Of a stretch of 51,805 nucleotides of DNA, positions 25,048-39,930 are shown piece after piece. This DNA is from Acidimicrobiales bacterium. GTDB taxonomy: Bacteria > Actinomycetota > Acidimicrobiia > Acidimicrobiales > MedAcidi-G1. Every line of letters begins with the position of its first letter. Position 1 is the first letter of the stretch. The notes beneath the pieces were generated by a model. That model saw only the letters and a program-made list of their open reading frames with translations, was not told the origin of the DNA and made no database searches. Made by a program: the position numbers and the translations under genes. The stretch is from the NCBI GenBank assembly GCA_022452035.1, contig JAKURV010000017.1:1-51805 (forward strand), read 5' to 3'.

Positions 25048-25479
25048 TCAGGCTGGGGCCTGCTCCTCGAGCACGATGCAGGCCGAGTTGATGCAGTAGC
25101 GGTCACCGGTGGGTGCCGGGCCGTCAGGGAACACGTGGCCGAGGTGGGCACCGCACGTGCCGCAGGTGGTCTCGGTCCGAACCATGCCGAGGCTGGTGTC
25201 GGCCCGGGCGTCAATCCGAGCGTCCTCGGCCGGAGCCGTGAAGCTCGGCCAGCCGCACCCGGAGTCAAACTTGGCAGCGCTGTCGAACACCACGGCGTCG
25301 CACGCTGCGCAGCGGTAGGTTCCGGTTCGCTTCTCGTCCCAGTAGGTGCCGGTGAAGGCCCGTTCGGTTCCGGCCTCCTGGGTGCAGTGCCAGGCCATCG
25401 GGTCCAGGCGTTCACGGAGGTCGGGGTTCCGTTCGGCGTGGGCGGTCCGCTTCTCTTCGGGGGTGAGCTGGTCATCCAT
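25048..25479 (-). CDS. msrB: Peptide-methionine (R)-S-oxide reductase MsrB
   Basis: MsrB reduces the R epimer of methionine sulfoxide in proteins. The 143-residue protein has the zinc site formed by two CxxC pairs (CAAC and CGTC), the FDSGCGWPSF stretch, GHVFPDG, and the catalytic cysteine in RYCINSA. There is no selenocysteine: the catalytic codon is an ordinary Cys codon. I use ATG 25479 because a TACCGT hexamer lies 8 bases upstream. Another in-frame ATG at 25506 would add nine residues that look non-homologous. The gene is divergent from recA. Confidence 0.94.
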   Translation of the reverse strand: MDDQLTPEEKRTAHAERNPDLRERLDPMAWHCTQEAGTERAFTGTYWDEKRTGTYRCAACDAVVFDSAAKFDSGCGWPSFTAPAEDARIDARADTSLGMVRTETTCGTCGAHLGHVFPDGPAPTGDRYCINSACIVLEEQAPA

Positions 25480-25531: not shown

Positions 25532-25561
25532 TTGCATCGAACGCCTGTTCGCAATTACGCT
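25532..25561 (+). promoter_or_regulatory. recA promoter with embedded SOS box
   Basis: TCGAACGCCTGTTCGC at 25537-25552 matches the actinobacterial/Bacillus-type LexA operator TCGAAC-N4-GTTCGA at all but the last base. It lies almost exactly between a -35-like TTGCAT (25532-25537) and a -10-like TACGCT (25556-25561), so bound LexA would block RNA polymerase. A second possible -10, TAGAGT at 25601, could serve a constitutive start. The leader before recA is then about 115 bases. Confidence 0.8.
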
Positions 25562-25682
25562 GTTGTCATTCGTTCCGGACCCGTTGTCACAGGCCTTTCC
25601 TAGAGTCGCCGGCGACAACTCCGACAGACATCCAGAAACCTGACCAGGACCACGAGGGTCCGGAGAGAACGGAGCAACCAAC

Positions 25683-33588: not shown

Positions 33589-34650
33589 GTGACCGACCTG
33601 CTGGCCCTGACTGCCGAGCTGGTCGACATTCCGTCGGTCAGTTTCGACGAGGCCGACCTCGTGGCTCGTCTGGAGGCCGAACTAAGGGCCGTACCAGGGC
33701 TCGGCGTTGACCGTATCGGCGACAACCTGGTGGCCCGGACCGACCTGGGTCGTGACCACCGCCTCATCCTGGCCGGTCACACCGACACCGTTCCCGGCGA
33801 CACCACGGGGTCCCGCCTGGACGGTGACACCCTCTGGGGTTTGGGGGCCGCCGACATGAAGGGCGGCCTGGCCGTGATGCTGGAGTTGGCCCGGACCATG
33901 TCGGAACCGGCGATTGACGTGACGTGGGTGTTATACGCCCGCGAGGAAGTGGCCATCGCCCACAACGGCCTTCGGGAGTTGTTCGCCGAGGCTCCGGACC
34001 TGCTGGACGGTGATGTGGCCATCCTCGGAGAGCCGACCGGTGGAGCCGTCGAAGCGGGCTGCCAGGGGACGATGCGCTTTGAGGTGACCCTGGCCGGCAC
34101 CCGGGCCCACACGGCCCGGCCTTGGATGGGACGCAACGCCGTCCACCGCCTAGGAGGGCTGCTGGACGCCCTGAACGGCTACGAGCACCGGGAGCCCGTA
34201 GTGGACGGCTGCCGGTACCGGGAGGCCCTCCAGGCCGTGCACGTCGAGGGCGGGGTGGCCGGCAACGTAGTGCCTGACCGGGCCATGGTGCGGATCAACC
34301 ACCGTTACGCGCCGGACCGGACCGGCGACGAGGCCGAAGCCCACGTGCGGGGGTTCCTGGCCCCGCACCTGGAAGAGGGCGACGAGGTGGATTTGGTGGA
34401 CCACTCGCTGGCCGCCGCCCCGGGGCTGTCTCATCCCCTCCTACGGGCCGTCGTGGAACGGAACGGCCTGAAGGTAGGGGCCAAGCTGGGTTGGACCGAC
34501 GTGGCGTTCTTTTCCGAGCGGGGAGTACCGGCGGTCAACCTCGGTCCGGGAGAGTCGACACTGGCCCACACCGCGGACGAGCGGGTGGAGCGGTCGTCGT
34601 TGGAGTCCTGCTACGCCGTCCTGAGGGACCTGATGGAGAACGGGATCTGA
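33589..34650 (+). CDS. dapE: Succinyl-diaminopimelate desuccinylase
   Basis: DapE removes succinate from N-succinyl-LL-DAP with a two-zinc M20 active site. The 353-residue product begins LLALTAELVDIPSVSFDEAD. Metal ligands are visible in LAGHTDTVPGD, GLGAADMKGG, the YAREEVAI stretch, the EPTGGAVEAGC region, and a late histidine in the STLAHTADERV segment. GTG 33589 lies 16 bases after dapD; no Shine-Dalgarno is obvious, but the start fits the family. The gene is convergent with lexA. Confidence 0.93.
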   Translation: MTDLLALTAELVDIPSVSFDEADLVARLEAELRAVPGLGVDRIGDNLVARTDLGRDHRLILAGHTDTVPGDTTGSRLDGDTLWGLGAADMKGGLAVMLELARTMSEPAIDVTWVLYAREEVAIAHNGLRELFAEAPDLLDGDVAILGEPTGGAVEAGCQGTMRFEVTLAGTRAHTARPWMGRNAVHRLGGLLDALNGYEHREPVVDGCRYREALQAVHVEGGVAGNVVPDRAMVRINHRYAPDRTGDEAEAHVRGFLAPHLEEGDEVDLVDHSLAAAPGLSHPLLRAVVERNGLKVGAKLGWTDVAFFSERGVPAVNLGPGESTLAHTADERVERSSLESCYAVLRDLMENGI

Positions 34651-34651
34651 G

Positions 34652-34678
34652 CCGTCGGAGTGCCAGACCCCCCGACGG
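34652..34678. terminator. Bidirectional hairpin between dapE and lexA
   Basis: CCGTCGG (34652-34658) pairs with CCGACGG (34672-34678) around a 13-base loop. It lies in the 33-base gap between the convergent dapE and lexA stops and could end transcription from both sides. Confidence 0.6.
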
Positions 34679-34683
34679 TGGTC

Positions 34684-35316
34684 TCAGATCCGACGTAGGA
34701 CGGTCACGACCTTTCCGAAGACCGTGACCTCGTCGGCTGGGTAGCGCTGTTCGGAGAAGGCCGGGTTGGCCGGGACCAGGACCACGGTCTCGCCCTCGGT
34801 TCGGAAGTGCTTCACGGTGCCTTCGCCGCCCGGGATACCCGCCACCACCAGGTCGCCCTGGTCGGCGGTGGGCTGAGAGCGCACAACCACGTGGTCGCCA
34901 TCCAGGATGCCCGCCTCGATCATCGAGTCGCCCCGGACCCGGAGCATGAACAGCTCCCCATCGCCGGTGAACTCGGCGGGGAGGGGGAGGGACCCTTCGA
35001 CATTCTCGTGGGCCAGGACGTCAACTCCGGCCGCCACGTCGCCGACCAAAGGAACGTGACAGATCGGAGCACGCTCCACCGGCGCACCGCTGACCGGATC
35101 GAACCGCACCTCGATGGCTCGGGGCTTGCTGGGGTCACGGTGGAGGAAGCCGCGGTCCTGGAGGGTGGTCAGGTGAGAGTGGACGGTCGACGGGGAGGTG
35201 AGGCCGACCGCCGTGCCGATCTCGCGGACCGACGGTGGATAGCCGCGCTGGCGGGTCTCGGCGTCGATGAACTCAAGGATCTGCTGCTGTCGCTTGCTGA
35301 GCCCTGTCTCGGTCAT
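34684..35316 (-). CDS. lexA: SOS repressor LexA
   Basis: LexA represses DNA-damage genes and cleaves itself when RecA is active. The 210-residue protein has an N-terminal winged helix (GYPPSVREIGTAVGLTSPST), the cleavage site Ala96-Gly97 in GDVAAGVDV, the nucleophile Ser131 in RGDSMIEAGI and the general base Lys169 in GTVKHF. I start at ATG 35316, where GGAAAGAA lies just upstream; an in-frame start at 35385 would put the SOS box inside the gene. nrdR, often next to lexA in actinobacteria, is not here. Confidence 0.97.
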   Translation of the reverse strand: MTETGLSKRQQQILEFIDAETRQRGYPPSVREIGTAVGLTSPSTVHSHLTTLQDRGFLHRDPSKPRAIEVRFDPVSGAPVERAPICHVPLVGDVAAGVDVLAHENVEGSLPLPAEFTGDGELFMLRVRGDSMIEAGILDGDHVVVRSQPTADQGDLVVAGIPGGEGTVKHFRTEGETVVLVPANPAFSEQRYPADEVTVFGKVVTVLRRI

Positions 35317-35358
35317 GGTGCGTTCTTTCCGCTGATTGACCGACGGGTGCCGGTCGAT

Positions 35359-35386
35359 TTGACAACGAACATATGTTCGATACACT
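35359..35386 (+). promoter_or_regulatory. Promoter of the LysM gene with embedded SOS box
   Basis: A near-consensus promoter, TTGACA (35359-35364), 16-base spacer, TACACT (35381-35386), points toward the LysM gene. The spacer is filled exactly by ACGAACATATGTTCGA (35365-35380), whose central 14 bases are a perfect palindrome matching the LexA operator core. The same box would also cover the divergent lexA promoter, whose -10 may be TATGTT on the minus strand. Confidence 0.85.
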
Positions 35387-35397
35387 GATCACCGTGA

Positions 35398-35443
35398 TCG
35401 AACACCTGTACGCCGAATACATGTTCCCCGAACAGGCGTTCCA
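35398..35443 (+). promoter_or_regulatory. Three tandem SOS-box-like sites at 15-base spacing
   Basis: Downstream of the first box are TCGAACACCTGTACGC (35398-35413), CCGAATACATGTTCCC (35413-35428) and CCGAACAGGCGTTCCA (35428-35443). Each keeps the GAA-N6-GTNC backbone of TCGAAC-N4-GTTCGA with two to four mismatches in the half sites. They share boundary bases and repeat every 15 bases. They would lie in the 5' leader of the LysM mRNA, just after the predicted start site. Confidence 0.65.
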
Positions 35444-35506
35444 TGTCAAGGACCCTATGCCGGTCTCGGGGCCGGCCTGTCACACCCGATCGTCAGGATG
35501 GATCAC

Positions 35507-36007
35507 ATGGACACGATGACCCTCGACACCCGAGCCCTCCAGCTTCCGCTCGATTTCTCTGACGGTGCCGGGCCCGCTTCGCCATACCGGCCCTCTCCGG
35601 CCCCGTCGGCCCTACGGCGCCTGGTAGCCGACGTCCTATCGGCCGAACCGGCTGCAGTTGCCGCCCGGCGCGAGGCGACCCCGGTCCGCCCGACGGCTAC
35701 CAGCCTGACCGTCTACCGCCGCCGCCGCCTGCTGGTTGCCGTGACCCTCGGCCTCCTAGCCTCCGCTCTCTCCCTCCTAGGCGGCGAGCTGGTCGCCCGG
35801 GTCACCGGCACGCCCGGATCGGCCGTCGTCGAGGCGGCAGGCGAGCCCGTGGTTTATGTGGTCCAGCCGGGTGACACGCTGTGGTCCATCGCCGAGCGGA
35901 TCACCCCGGACGACCGCGACATCCGCCACACCGTGGACCGCCTGGCCGCGTCCACCGGTGGGGCGATGCTCCAGCCGGGACAGCGGGTCGTCCTGCCCTC
36001 CAGCTAA
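35507..36007 (+). CDS. LysM membrane protein, probable SOS cell-division inhibitor
   Basis: The product has about 166 residues: a cytoplasmic N-terminus of some 65 residues, one membrane helix (LLVAVTLGLLASALSLLGG), and an extracytoplasmic LysM motif (VYVVQPGDTLWSIAERI through LQPGQRVVLP). LysM binds peptidoglycan. Divergent neighbours of lexA with this layout include YneA in Bacillus and Rv2719c/ChiZ in mycobacteria, both damage-induced and linked to a division block. The four SOS-like sites upstream support the same role; that role is inference. ATG 35507 is preferred for its AGGATG at suitable distance; ATG 35498 is in frame just upstream. Confidence 0.83.
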   Translation: MDTMTLDTRALQLPLDFSDGAGPASPYRPSPAPSALRRLVADVLSAEPAAVAARREATPVRPTATSLTVYRRRRLLVAVTLGLLASALSLLGGELVARVTGTPGSAVVEAAGEPVVYVVQPGDTLWSIAERITPDDRDIRHTVDRLAASTGGAMLQPGQRVVLPSS

Positions 36008-36038
36008 ACCAGCGTCGTCGCCGGATTCGATCCCGTGC

Positions 36039-36800
36039 CTAGGAGACCAGGTACCGGCAGAAGAGGAACCCGTCCTCAGACAGCACCCGGTGCAGACCGA
36101 GGCGGATCGGCACGGCCAGGCTGGGACCGTCCAGCAGGGCCCGGCCCCCGAGGCCCACGCCACCGACCAGCATCGGCGAAATCGACACGCACAGCTCGTC
36201 TACCAGGCCTGCAGCGAACAGTTGGTGGTTGAGGTGTGGCCCACCCTCGCACAGCACCGTCCGCGCTCCGATGTCGTTGAGGGTGGCCAGGAGCCCGGTC
36301 AAGTCCACCAGCGTCTCACCGCACACCACCAGCTCAGCCAGCGGCTCCAGGGCAGCCCGGCGGTCGGCAGGAGAACTCGAGACGGTAGCCACCAGGGGTG
36401 CCGGATCACCGGGGTCGTTCTCGGCAAACAGGGGGAGGGTGGGGTCAAGGTCCAGGGAGCCGGACACCACCACCAGGCGGGGCCTCGGGGCCCGTCCCTC
36501 GGCGGCGCGTCGGGAAGCCACCGGACCGGCGGGGTCTTGAGGCGGTCGGTAGCCCTCAGCTCGCACGGTTCCTGCACCGACCAGGACCATGTCGGACAGC
36601 CCACGGAGCGCCTGAAAGACGTGGCGGTCGCCGGTTCCGCCGAGGCCGCCCGACCGACCGGCCACCGTCGTGGCACCGTCCATGGAGGCCACCATGTTGA
36701 CGACCACCCACGGACGACCCGGGGGAGCCGGCCGGTCGTCGCCGAGATAAGCCTCGACCGGGTCAACCTCGGGCCCGTCGCTGGGGTGGAGGATTCGCAC
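36039..36800 (-). CDS. RibD C-terminal-type (pyrimidine) reductase
   Basis: The 253-residue protein belongs to the RibD_C/dihydrofolate-reductase-like fold. The start VVVNMVASMDGATTVAGRSG is the substrate/NADPH region; SDMVLVGAGTVRAEGYRPP and ARTVLCEGGPHLNHQL are further family motifs. It lacks the deaminase domain of full RibD. The riboflavin operon in this window has no ribD, so this could supply the 5-amino-6-ribosylamino-uracil reductase step. A related stand-alone mycobacterial enzyme (Rv2671) can also reduce folates, so the role is not certain. GTG 36800 is chosen for its TACCGT at 6 bases. Confidence 0.85.
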   Translation of the reverse strand: MRILHPSDGPEVDPVEAYLGDDRPAPPGRPWVVVNMVASMDGATTVAGRSGGLGGTGDRHVFQALRGLSDMVLVGAGTVRAEGYRPPQDPAGPVASRRAAEGRAPRPRLVVVSGSLDLDPTLPLFAENDPGDPAPLVATVSSSPADRRAALEPLAELVVCGETLVDLTGLLATLNDIGARTVLCEGGPHLNHQLFAAGLVDELCVSISPMLVGGVGLGGRALLDGPSLAVPIRLGLHRVLSEDGFLFCRYLVS

Positions 36801-36806
36801 GGCGCG

Positions 36807-36812
36807 ACGGTA
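36807..36812 (-). promoter_or_regulatory. -10 element TACCGT, leaderless start of the reductase
   Basis: On the minus strand TACCGT is followed by CGCGCC and the GTG at 36800. No Shine-Dalgarno lies between. Confidence 0.6.
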
Positions 36813-36824
36813 TCCGGTCCAGGC

Positions 36825-36885
36825 TGTGGACAACCCCGTGGTCGTCCACCGGGAATTCCACAACCAATCCCCCTATCGGTCCACA
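36825..36885. promoter_or_regulatory. Cluster of DnaA-box-like sites upstream of nrdJ
   Basis: TGTGGACAA (36825-36833) is the exact complement of the actinobacterial DnaA box TTGTCCACA. Three weaker plus-strand sites follow: TCGTCCACC (36842-36850), AATTCCACA (36854-36862) and CGGTCCACA (36877-36885). The last overlaps the space just upstream of a candidate nrdJ -10 (TAGGTT, 36898). DnaA is known to bind RNR promoters in some bacteria. Its binding here is inference. Confidence 0.45.
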
Positions 36886-36897
36886 GGCTGGTGTCCG

Positions 36898-37146
36898 TAG
36901 GTTCCCCCTCGTGGTCGGTGGCGGTCGGCTCGGCACGAACCATCACCCCGACCCGTTGGGGTGACGCTGGGAGGTCCGCACCATCCGTCGCGACGGGTGG
37001 AGCCCGGGTCTCCTCGACCTGGGCCAGCCGCTGTCGGCCACGACCTCGGAGGTCGTCGGGGCACCGGAAGGGTGTCACCGAGGGGCCGTACCATCGGTAC
37101 GGGTAGACCCAGAATCGACAAGGACCGCAGGAGGGCGGAAGGGCAC
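36898..37146 (+). promoter_or_regulatory. Structured leader of nrdJ
   Basis: Starting from a possible -10 (TAGGTT, 36898-36903), about 240 bases precede nrdJ without a gene. Four hairpins can be drawn: TCACCCC/GGGGTGA (36943-36964), CCATCCGTC/GACGGGTGG (36981-37000), ACGACCT/AGGTCGT (37040-37056) and CCGTACC/GGTACGG (37086-37102). An alternative -10, TACCAT at 37089, would leave a short leader. AGGAGGGCGG is the Shine-Dalgarno. I do not find the conserved boxes of a cobalamin riboswitch, nor a clear NrdR box. Confidence 0.45.
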
Positions 37147-39930
37147 ATGTCGCTGGCATCGGAGCGGGGGATCCTGGGGATCCGCCGCCGCTTCACTACC
37201 CCGGAGACCGACCCCTACGACCAGGTGGCGTGGGAACACCGGACCTCTCGCCTGGTTGACCACCGCGACGGCAGCGTGGCCTTCGAACAGGACGACGTCG
37301 AAGTGCCGTCCTCCTGGTCGTTAAATGCCACCAACATCCTCGCCCAGAAGTACTTCCGGGGGCCGCTAGGCAGCCCGGAGCGCGAGGGCTCGTTGCGCCA
37401 GGTCGCAGACCGAGTGGCCGGAGCGATCGCCGACTGGGGCCTGCGTGACGGCTACTTCGTCGACGGCGACGAGGCCGACGCCTTCGCCGCCGAGCTCCGG
37501 TACCTGATCGTGACCCAGCGGGCAGCCTTCAACTCGCCGGTGTGGTTCAACATCGGCGTTCCCGGCGTGCCCCAACAGGCCTCGGCTTGCTTCATCCTCT
37601 CCGTGGACGACGAGATGTCATCCATCCTTAACTGGTACGTCGAGGAGGGGACCATCTTCAAGGGCGGTTCCGGTTCTGGCGTCAACCTGAGCGCAATCCG
37701 GTCAAGCCGGGAGGTGTTGAGGGGCGGCGGGAATGCCAGCGGGCCGGTGAGCTTCATGAGGGGTGCCGACGCGTCGGCCGGCACCATTAAGAGCGGAGGC
37801 AAGACCCGACGGGCGGCCAAGATGGTGATCCTCGACGCCGACCATCCCGACGTCGGGGACTTCATCTGGTGCAAGGCCCGTGAGGAGCGCAAGGTGCGGG
37901 TACTGGCCGAGGCCGGCTTCGACGTCGGCTTCGACGGCGCCGACAGCCACTCCATCATGTACCAGAACGCCAACAACTCGGTCCGGGTCACCGACGAGTT
38001 CATGCAGGCCGTCGAGTCCGACGGCGACTGGGACCTCCGGGCAGTTACCGACAGCGCGGTAATCGAAACGGTTCGGGCCCGCGGCCTCTTCCGGCAGATG
38101 GCCCAGGCGGCATGGGAGTGCGCCGATCCCGGCGTCCAGTTCGATACCACCATCAACCGCTGGCACACCGCGTCCAACTCCGGCCGGATCACGGCCAGCA
38201 ACCCTTGCTCCGAGTATGTCCACCTCGATGACTCGGCCTGCAATCTGGCCAGCCTGAACCTGCTGGCCTTCCTCGGGTCCACCGACGACGAGACGGCGGG
38301 TATCGGAGGTTTCGACGTAGACGGCTTCTGCCACGCGGTCGAGGTGATGCTCACCGCCCAGGAGATCCTGGTCGGTAACGCCGACTACCCGACGGTGGCC
38401 ATCGGGGAGACCACGCGGGCCTTCCGCCAACTGGGTCTCGGCTATGCCAACCTGGGCGCCCTCCTGATGGCCCTCGGCCTGCCCTACGACAGCGACGAGG
38501 GTCGGTCAGTGGCCGCCGCTGTCACCTCCCTGATGACCGGACACGCCTACCGGACTTCGGCCCGGTTGGCCGACCGGATGGGCCCCTTCGACGGCTACGA
38601 GCACAACCGGGAACCCATGCTGGGCGTCCTGGACATGCACCGGGAGGCTGCCGAGATGCTGGACGACGACGTGGCACCCGAGCTGGTGGACGCTGGCCGG
38701 ACGGCGTGGTTCGAGGCCTGTGCCCTTGCTCAACGCGTTGGGGTGAGAAACAGCCAGGCCACGGTCCTGGCCCCCACGGGCACCATCGGCCTGCTCATGG
38801 ACTGCGACACCACGGGCATCGAACCGGACCTCAGCCTGGTGAAGCACAAGCGCCTGGTCGGGGGCGGCACTATGTCGATCGTCAACCGCACCGTTCCCCG
38901 TGCACTGGCCCGGCTGGGCTACGACGACCAACAGGCGACTGCCATCCTGGCCTGGATCGACGAGCACCAGACGGTGGTCGGCTGCCCGGAGGTTCGGGCC
39001 GAGCACGTGGCCGTGTTCGCCACCTCCATGGGCGACAACCCCATCCACCACATGGGCCACATCCGGATGATGGGGGCCGTCCAACCGTTCCTGTCCGGGG
39101 CCATCTCCAAGACCTGCAACATGCCCGAGGACGTCACCGTCGATGACGTCGAGGAGCTGTACATGGAGTCGTGGCGGCTCGGCCTGAAGGCGGTCGCCAT
39201 CTACCGGGACAACTGCAAGGTGGCTCAGCCCCTGTCCACCGGCCACGAATCGACGCCGGAGCCAGCCGCCGCCGTCGAGGATGTCACCGCGGCCCTGGCC
39301 GAACCGGTCCGCCGCCGACTGCCGCGGCGCCGCCGGTCCCGCACCCTCGAGTTCCGGGTAGCGGACTGCAAGGGCTTCGTCACCGTCGGTGAGTACGACG
39401 ACGGCCGTCCGGGAGAGGTGTTCGTCCGCGTCTCCAAGCAGGGTTCGACCCTGGCCGGGATCATGGACGCCTTCGCCATCTCGCTCAGCCACGGCCTGCA
39501 ATACGGCGTTCCGCTTCGGGCCTTCGTCGACGCGTTCACCGGGATGCGGTTCGAACCGGCCGGAATGACCGACGATCCCGACCTCCGAATCTCCACCAGC
39601 CTCATCGACTACCTGTTCCGACGCCTGGCCGTCGAGTACCTGACCGCCGAGGAGCGGGCCGAACTGAACATCTTGACCACTAGCGAACGCACCCAGCCCA
39701 CCCTGCCCGGCGTAGAGGAGTCCGTCACCGAGACCCGTCAGGGATCCGAAGTACCGCCAGACCCCCCCACCGTTCCGTCGGCCACCCAGTTTGCCGCTCA
39801 CCTGGCCCTCGGGTCCCTGGGCGCTTCCGGAGCCGACGCCCCCATGTGCATGCAGTGCGGCGTGTCCATGCAGCGCGCCGGGTCCTGTTACGTATGCGCC
39901 GACTGCGGTGCCACCAGCGGGTGCTCGTGA
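37147..39930 (+). CDS. nrdJ: Vitamin B12-dependent ribonucleotide reductase (class II)
   Basis: NrdJ makes deoxyribonucleotides with adenosylcobalamin as radical source and needs no oxygen. The 927-residue protein includes the first redox cysteine (QQASACFILSV), the active-site loop NPCSEYVHLDDSACNLASLN, the phosphate-binding region TGTIGLLMDCDTTGIEPD, and a C-terminal TSCPD-like domain. It ends in a zinc-ribbon-like tail with MCMQCGVSMQ and CYVCADCG. ATG 37147 has AGGAGGG upstream. An in-frame extension to 36961 runs through the leader and looks spurious. tdk follows after 28 bases, a sensible dNTP-supply pairing. Confidence 0.96.
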   Translation: MSLASERGILGIRRRFTTPETDPYDQVAWEHRTSRLVDHRDGSVAFEQDDVEVPSSWSLNATNILAQKYFRGPLGSPEREGSLRQVADRVAGAIADWGLRDGYFVDGDEADAFAAELRYLIVTQRAAFNSPVWFNIGVPGVPQQASACFILSVDDEMSSILNWYVEEGTIFKGGSGSGVNLSAIRSSREVLRGGGNASGPVSFMRGADASAGTIKSGGKTRRAAKMVILDADHPDVGDFIWCKAREERKVRVLAEAGFDVGFDGADSHSIMYQNANNSVRVTDEFMQAVESDGDWDLRAVTDSAVIETVRARGLFRQMAQAAWECADPGVQFDTTINRWHTASNSGRITASNPCSEYVHLDDSACNLASLNLLAFLGSTDDETAGIGGFDVDGFCHAVEVMLTAQEILVGNADYPTVAIGETTRAFRQLGLGYANLGALLMALGLPYDSDEGRSVAAAVTSLMTGHAYRTSARLADRMGPFDGYEHNREPMLGVLDMHREAAEMLDDDVAPELVDAGRTAWFEACALAQRVGVRNSQATVLAPTGTIGLLMDCDTTGIEPDLSLVKHKRLVGGGTMSIVNRTVPRALARLGYDDQQATAILAWIDEHQTVVGCPEVRAEHVAVFATSMGDNPIHHMGHIRMMGAVQPFLSGAISKTCNMPEDVTVDDVEELYMESWRLGLKAVAIYRDNCKVAQPLSTGHESTPEPAAAVEDVTAALAEPVRRRLPRRRRSRTLEFRVADCKGFVTVGEYDDGRPGEVFVRVSKQGSTLAGIMDAFAISLSHGLQYGVPLRAFVDAFTGMRFEPAGMTDDPDLRISTSLIDYLFRRLAVEYLTAEERAELNILTTSERTQPTLPGVEESVTETRQGSEVPPDPPTVPSATQFAAHLALGSLGASGADAPMCMQCGVSMQRAGSCYVCADCGATSGCS

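Follow-up and report, generated by a model that had tools for sequence, protein, structure and literature searches.

A conserved four-box LexA array between lexA and a divergent LysM gene in Acidimicrobiales, with a 15-bp triple that most likely belongs to lexA

The lexA/LysM locus and its operators

The window, a stretch of 51,805 nucleotides from an Acidimicrobiales genome (contig JAKURV010000017.1), contains lexA adjoining a divergent gene for a small single-pass LysM-domain protein, the layout of lexA with a ChiZ/DivS/YneA-type inhibitor (Table 1; ChiZ, DivS, and YneA are described in PMC3989709, cited, like the other literature here, from excerpts). The LysM protein contains one hydrophobic stretch and a C-terminal LysM domain. 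From its position and build it appears ChiZ/YneA-like and is probably an SOS-induced division inhibitor; it scores 19.4 bits against the YneA model NF010723, below the cut-off of 60, and so is not filed as YneA. Beyond the LysM gene, positions 36039–39930 include a ribonucleotide reductase gene of class II (B12-dependent), separated from the LysM gene by a RibD_C-domain gene. An Rfam scan of positions 34000–38000 returned no RNA family at the gathering threshold.

Table 1. Coordinates of the features discussed, numbered from the first base of the window
Feature	Positions	Strand	Details
lexA	34684–35316	-	TIGR00498, 214.9 bits (cut-off 110.95); LexA_DNA_bind and Peptidase_S24
LysM promoter (predicted)	35359–35386	+	-35 TTGACA 35359–35364, 16-bp spacer, -10 TACACT 35381–35386; predicted start ~35393
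Box 1	35365–35380	.	core 35367–35378 GAACATATGTTC; 0 mismatches; in LysM promoter spacer
Box 2	35398–35413	.	core 35400–35411 GAACACCTGTAC; 1 mismatch; between both predicted start sites
Box 3	35413–35428	.	core 35415–35426 GAATACATGTTC; 1 mismatch; one half is also the predicted lexA -10
Box 4	35428–35443	.	core 35430–35441 GAACAGGCGTTC; 0 mismatches; in predicted lexA promoter spacer
lexA promoter (predicted)	35421–35449	-	-35 TTGACA 35449–35444, 17-bp spacer, -10 GAACAT 35426–35421; predicted start ~35414
Conserved element	35478–35485	+	TGTCACAC; 21 nt before LysM ATG 35507
LysM gene, small protein	35507–36007	+	start 35507 or 35498; PF01476, 28.7 bits (cut-off 20.9)

The actinobacterial LexA operator consensus is CGAAC-N4-GTTCG. 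The control region between the two genes contains four boxes with GAAC-N4-GTTC cores, whose starts are separated by 33, 15, and 15 bases; against the consensus core, two of them are perfect and two have one mismatch. An earlier, sequence-only reading of this DNA had placed LexA-type operators at the lexA/LysM pair, and all four sites are where it put them: its 16-mers at 35398, 35413, and 35428 correspond to the last three cores, each extended by two bases at both ends, and neighboring 16-mers have one end base in common, as it claimed. Its description of the three downstream sites as weaker holds for boxes 2 and 3 and fails for box 4, which has a perfect 8-base core with only its outer flanks off. 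A 15-base step equals 1.43 turns at 10.5 bases per turn, which by geometry, rather than from a measured structure, sets neighboring dimers about 154 degrees apart, so packing should be possible.

Single cores are common in this DNA (22 with at most one mismatch in the whole window, against 17.5 expected, which is no excess), and the case for the array therefore rests on clustering and conservation. Resampling the 187 upstream regions described below with a first-order Markov model gave, among 9350 resamples, three boxes in five, four boxes in none, and a 15-bp neighbor pair in none. When the window's own genome was searched for 15-bp tandem pairs, the box 3–4 pair was the best match (one mismatch), and the box 2–3 pair (two mismatches) tied with one other place, followed by 17 further places with three mismatches; this search gave 20 forward matches, compared to five for the reversed pattern.

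Elsewhere in the genome, recA has one perfect box (25539–25550), the single box attributed to it earlier, and a one-mismatch core at 25354 falls inside the neighboring open frame. There are ten perfect 14-mer operators in the genome, five of them at lexA, recA, imuA', a DnaE2-like frame, and an AlkB-like 2OG-Fe(II) oxygenase gene, and the remaining five in or beside other frames. The imuA' gene behind its operator scores above the cut-off. The DnaE2-like frame has an error-prone polymerase as its best match and scores 537.6 bits, below the cut-off of 939, because the frame is cut and only 495 aa are present. In two loci (L017 and L021, position 1501), the single box preceding imuA' or the DnaE2-like gene is part of a longer palindrome, AGTATCGAAC-N4-GTTCGATACT.

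Conservation of the array and layouts among relatives

Of the 17 genomes in the genus, counting that of the window, 16 yielded lexA; the one that did not (G005) is 66% complete. All 16 loci have four boxes upstream of lexA, with spacings, in lexA orientation, of 15-15-33 in 12 and 15-15-32 in four, and the latter four (L003–L006) contain a fifth core 95 bp further from lexA. Conservation of the 15-base period in close relatives had been set beforehand as a test, and the period is kept in 16/16. A palindrome (GATCAC-C-GTGATC, 35387–35399) was considered as the site of another regulator and rejected; it is found in the window and, with a different middle base, in L016, and is absent from the other 14 same-genus loci.

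The comparison was extended to the family (lexA in 47 of 48 genomes), the order (184 of 198 genomes matched, with the best places listed, from which 84 further loci were read, 24 new and the 60 next in line; one genome's second match was skipped), and named records (the best 80 of 228). From 211 lexA loci we kept 187 that are distinct and have at least 300 upstream bases, 58 of which are named records without a family label; five loci with shorter upstream stretches (L012, L039, L153, L212, and L225) and 19 with an identical one were dropped. The order set is not random, having been picked by LexA similarity, so the sample leans toward LexA proteins like the window's, and the 187 regions are related and thus not independent of one another. 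Among the best 80 of 228 named records, the nearest is Acidimicrobiaceae MAG SP351 (L147; 95% LexA identity). Two MAG records titled Bifidobacterium breve (L211 and L214) carry a lexA near that of Acidimicrobiales, 65% identical to the window's, and one of them (L211) is identical to an Actinomycetota MAG (L221); these titles look like mislabels.

Across the 187 regions, from Acidimicrobiales and near relatives, we counted two boxes in six regions, three in 22, four in 110, five in 38, six in nine, and seven in two. Every region thus has at least two boxes, none has fewer, and 181/187 have at least three. Neighboring boxes are 15 bp apart 167 times, 14 bp seven times, and 16 bp five times, and, by family label, some 15-bp pair occurs in 13 of 33 families. 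Clustered boxes are therefore the rule among the loci read, and the 15-bp triple is not.

We distinguished two layouts with sequence patterns that were written after seeing example sequences. The pattern for the facing layout includes TTGAC, box 4, and AACAT on the lexA strand; the mycobacteria-like layout has a lexA-proximal AAC-N4-GTTT followed by N14–21 and TANNNT, such that the box overlaps the -35. The facing layout is found in 65/187 loci: all 45 of the window's family, 6/58 named records, and 4/4, 4/4, 2/2, and 4/5 loci in families f17, f27, f53, and f28, respectively. The mycobacteria-like layout is found in 104/187 (101 alone and three, all in f28, together with the facing layout) and in 0/45 loci of the window's family, and 21/187 match neither pattern. 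Reversed sequences of the 187 regions gave zero and one matches, respectively. A search of the phylum (192 of 198 genomes matched) provided 57 loci outside the order, of which none has the facing and 30 have the mycobacteria-like layout, counting L292, with 178 bases, as no match. Family f88, which we take to be mycobacterial, has the latter in 4/4 loci. On a LexA tree of 112 rows (the 44 family rows thinned to 11), layout needs five changes, with well-supported branches forcing at least two; a test for a single clade of the facing layout gave p = 0.113, so that a single origin is neither shown nor firmly rejected. With a strict LysM pattern, the LysM gene was found in 33 of the 38 facing-layout loci with enough flank, and in only 19 of 51 loci of the other main layout.

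Within the 65 facing-layout loci, the distance between boxes 4 and 3 is 15 in 64 (16 in one), and between boxes 3 and 2 it is 15 in all 65, counted with offsets of 14, 15, and 16 allowed and with 15 taken in case of a tie. For the 20 loci outside the family, the 4–3 distance and the promoter-like elements were largely built into the selection pattern; the 3–2 distance was not. The distance between boxes 2 and 1, in contrast, ranges from 21 to 38 bp (29–33 in the family). A rigid triple and a drifting fourth box indicate two modules. A DNA loop joining boxes 1 and 4, which are 63 bp or six turns apart in the window, is not supported, as their separation ranges from 59 to 63 bp across the family.

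The boxes also differ in how well their cores match. Within the family, the box 1 core is perfect at all 45 loci and that of box 4 at 39 (one mismatch in the other six); box 2 is perfect in 14 and has one mismatch in 31; and box 3 is perfect in none, with one mismatch in 39 and two in six. In one family subgroup (L048–L053), box 3 carries two mismatches and box 4 a single one, and the counted boxes are 30 and 33 apart. Of the 20 facing-layout loci outside the family, 11 have a perfect box 3 and 16 a perfect box 2; box 3 is thus not uniformly weak in this layout.

Promoter-like elements on the two strands

TTGACA-16-TACACT, in whose spacer box 1 had been reported to sit, is exact at 35359–35386, and this LysM-directed element is the sole promoter-like match in a scan of positions 35280–35560. 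It is held across the family: TTGNNA-16-TANNNT, with the -10 anchors T1, A2, and T6, spans box 1 on the LysM strand in 45/45 loci, the -35 being TTGACA in 21, TTGCAA in 14, TTGTAA in seven, and another variant in three. The element is looser in the 20 facing-layout loci outside the family (all three -10 anchors in 16/20; spacers of 15–18). On the lexA strand, the same search across box 1 yielded no locus with all three -10 anchors (0/65 facing-layout loci). Neither is there an enrichment of lexA-strand TANNNT 13–22 nt beyond box 1, which occurs in 7/45 family loci, against 10.7 expected from base shuffles, and in seven of the other 20, against 6.3 expected. Given the LysM-strand promoter in 45/45 loci and the lack of a lexA-strand -10 excess beyond box 1, this box looks like the LysM operator.

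On the lexA strand, TTGACA ends two bases before box 4 in 44/45 family loci (TTGACT in the exception), and [GA]AACAT follows 17 bases past TTGACA in 44/45 (the exception has box 3 one base further). CTTGACA is near-invariant, although TTGACA falls outside the LexA core; we take TTGACA at 35444–35449 for a lexA -35. The predicted -10, GAACAT, has three of six consensus bases and lacks the first T, and the consensus scan of 35280–35560 listed no lexA-strand promoter, the predicted one included. Because the conserved bases of this -10 overlap box 3, part of their conservation may reflect LexA binding. The T that comes two bases after GAAC is conserved in box 3 (44/45 family loci) and variable in boxes 4 and 2, which favors a -10 over a mere box. 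Transcription usually starts about seven bases from the -10, and both predicted starts rest on that distance. Taken together, the triple of boxes 4, 3, and 2 most likely belongs to lexA and not to the division inhibitor.

A further conserved element precedes the LysM gene. TGTCA[CG]AC is found on the LysM strand in 108/187 loci, among them 61 of the 65 facing-layout loci; the opposite strand gave a single match, and reversed sequences gave none. In 44/45 family loci, N8 and an xAxxxT hexamer, in most cases AGGAT-like, come after it, with the hexamer 6–7 nt before the ATG; the window's own copy (35478–35499) has TGTCAC and the hexamer CAGGAT. The PafBC promoter motif is given as TGTCNN-N10-TANNNT and also quoted as TGTCAC-N10-TANNNT (PMC8151990). 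A PafBC promoter at the LysM gene was rejected, since only half of the motif is present and TGTCA[CG]-N10-TANNNT occurs in 0/65 facing-layout loci; the element may be half a PafBC motif, part of a ribosome-binding context, or something else. Upstream of recA (25585–25606), TGTCACAG-N8-TAGAGT fits the PafBC-type TGTCAC-N10-TANNNT (PMC8151990); with four exact genome matches versus three for the reversed control, the recA-type motif is not significant by number. Two adjoining WYL-domain genes (G000:C32:5354–6486; L227 and L228) are a possible PafB/PafC pair.

Two probable facing promoters and alternative readings

From the boxes, their spacing and conservation, and the promoter-like elements and their directions, all read directly from the sequence and its comparison among relatives, we infer a probable arrangement of two overlapping promoters that face each other, with box 1 on that of LysM and boxes 4, 3, and 2 on lexA's own. 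LexA bound to box 1, in the spacer, would block the LysM promoter. LexA dimers on boxes 4, 3, and 2, 15 bp apart and on roughly opposite faces of the helix, would block the lexA promoter across its spacer, -10, and start region, so that lexA would be negatively autoregulated by one good operator and two weaker ones; box 2, lying between the two predicted starts, could block both promoters, LysM's included. Upon DNA damage and LexA cleavage both promoters would open. About 21 bp separate the two predicted, oppositely directed starts, and polymerases heading toward one another from them should therefore exclude one another or collide. The presence of the same operator before imuA', the dnaE2-like gene, and recA in this genome was counted in favor of this arrangement; counting against it is the analogy to M. 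tuberculosis, by which the cluster could serve LysM instead.

The M. tuberculosis lexA/Rv2719c intergenic region was reportedly the subject of Dullaghan 2002, the E. coli LexA operator consensus differs from the one here, and in bacteriophage 186 the facing promoters are situated near the repressor gene. The M. tuberculosis region likewise combines a divergent lexA and LysM-type division regulator (Rv2719c, ChiZ) with four SOS boxes, and a PafBC motif there faces away from lexA (PMC8151990); the sequence-only view that one or two boxes are usual at such a pair is thus at odds with published data. According to the excerpts of that source, M. tuberculosis lexA seems to be regulated by one box, and the other three, with the PafBC motif, act on the divergent operon. 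The arrangement differs here, where, by comparison among relatives, the 15-bp triple would be directed to a lexA promoter facing that of LysM. E. coli lexA is similar in being negatively autoregulated by multiple operators close to where transcription starts and differs in having two functional operators (PMC7440846), and several SOS boxes are described at some E. coli genes (PMC11002266). Colicin genes, where two LexA dimers occupy overlapping SOS boxes, resemble the array in this respect, but these are plasmid toxin genes with two boxes and are not a case of lexA autoregulation (PMC2994835). Bacteriophage 186 shares the convergent promoters (PMC6593788) and has a different repressor; in the present region the three packed operators are placed over the predicted promoters and in between them. 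LexA, RecA, ImuB, and DnaE2 are listed for marine Acidimicrobiales in PMC10205998, in whose excerpts we found no mention of operators. Full-text literature searches returned no treatment of LexA operators for Acidimicrobi- with LexA and SOS, as far as the retrieved excerpts extend, and no match for lexA with "face-to-face promoters".

The strongest competitor to the facing-promoter arrangement, though in our view unlikely, follows the sequence-only proposal: all four boxes, or boxes 2–4 as downstream operators, would serve LysM and make induction of the division inhibitor graded or late relative to recA, leaving lexA on box 1 alone. Boxes 2–4 do lie downstream of the predicted LysM start and closer to LysM than box 1, and in M. 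tuberculosis the three boxes and the PafBC motif are on the Rv2719c side, with one box for lexA (PMC8151990, from excerpts). However, the triple fits on a promoter-like site directed into lexA in 45/45 family loci, box 1 occupies the LysM-directed promoter in the same 45 with no lexA -10 enrichment beyond it, and the mycobacteria-like lexA promoter, found in 104/187 loci, is seen in none of the family. The cooperative LexA binding that had also been suggested finds no evidence here, and none was found at the E. coli lexA double operator, the role of which is called unclear in the excerpts available (PMC7440846). In a toy repression calculation with guessed affinities, several independent operators already gave a steeper response than a single operator, without any need for cooperativity; with a 9-fold mismatch penalty, the triple repressed less than one perfect box, and, the affinities being guessed, the toy curves alone support nothing.

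It is rather improbable that LexA binding in vivo is confined to boxes 1 and 4, with box 3 mainly the lexA -10, box 2 a decaying or start-site element, and the 15-bp period without a separate role. The absence of a perfect box 3 from the family and the mismatch in box 2 in 31/45 loci would be expected of such sites, yet the second half of box 3 is constrained at three positions (96–98%), with the mismatch mostly at one of two others, each of these two boxes is perfect in more than half of the 20 loci with this layout outside the family, and the period is exact. Least probable, and to our minds quite doubtful, is that the boxes are real LexA sites and lexA is driven by another, unrecognized promoter, which would accord with the weak predicted -10 missing from the consensus scan but is opposed by the scan listing no other lexA-strand promoter either and by the retention of TTGACA, outside the LexA core, in 44/45 family loci.

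On sequence grounds, the four-box array is real and deeply conserved in these largely uncultured actinobacteria, and it is a variant of known multi-box lexA regions. A more speculative view, which we hold only tentatively and think has perhaps a modest chance of being correct, is that the facing promoters represent a clade-specific rewiring of the SOS response, in which the ancestral gene-adjacent lexA promoter was lost and lexA came to be driven from the far side, through the promoter of the inhibitor. One array and head-on polymerases would then prevent lexA resynthesis and the division block from occurring together, and one good and two deliberately weak operators would allow a steep shut-off without cooperativity. 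The 65 regions with a 15-bp-locked triple and a drifting fourth box, together with the 101 of the other layout, make the roles of operator number, spacing, and promoter orientation testable by swapping short pieces of DNA. Should the facing promoters be in use, lexA and the inhibitor gene would compete for the same DNA, which may provide a simple way of linking the completion of repair with the resumption of division.
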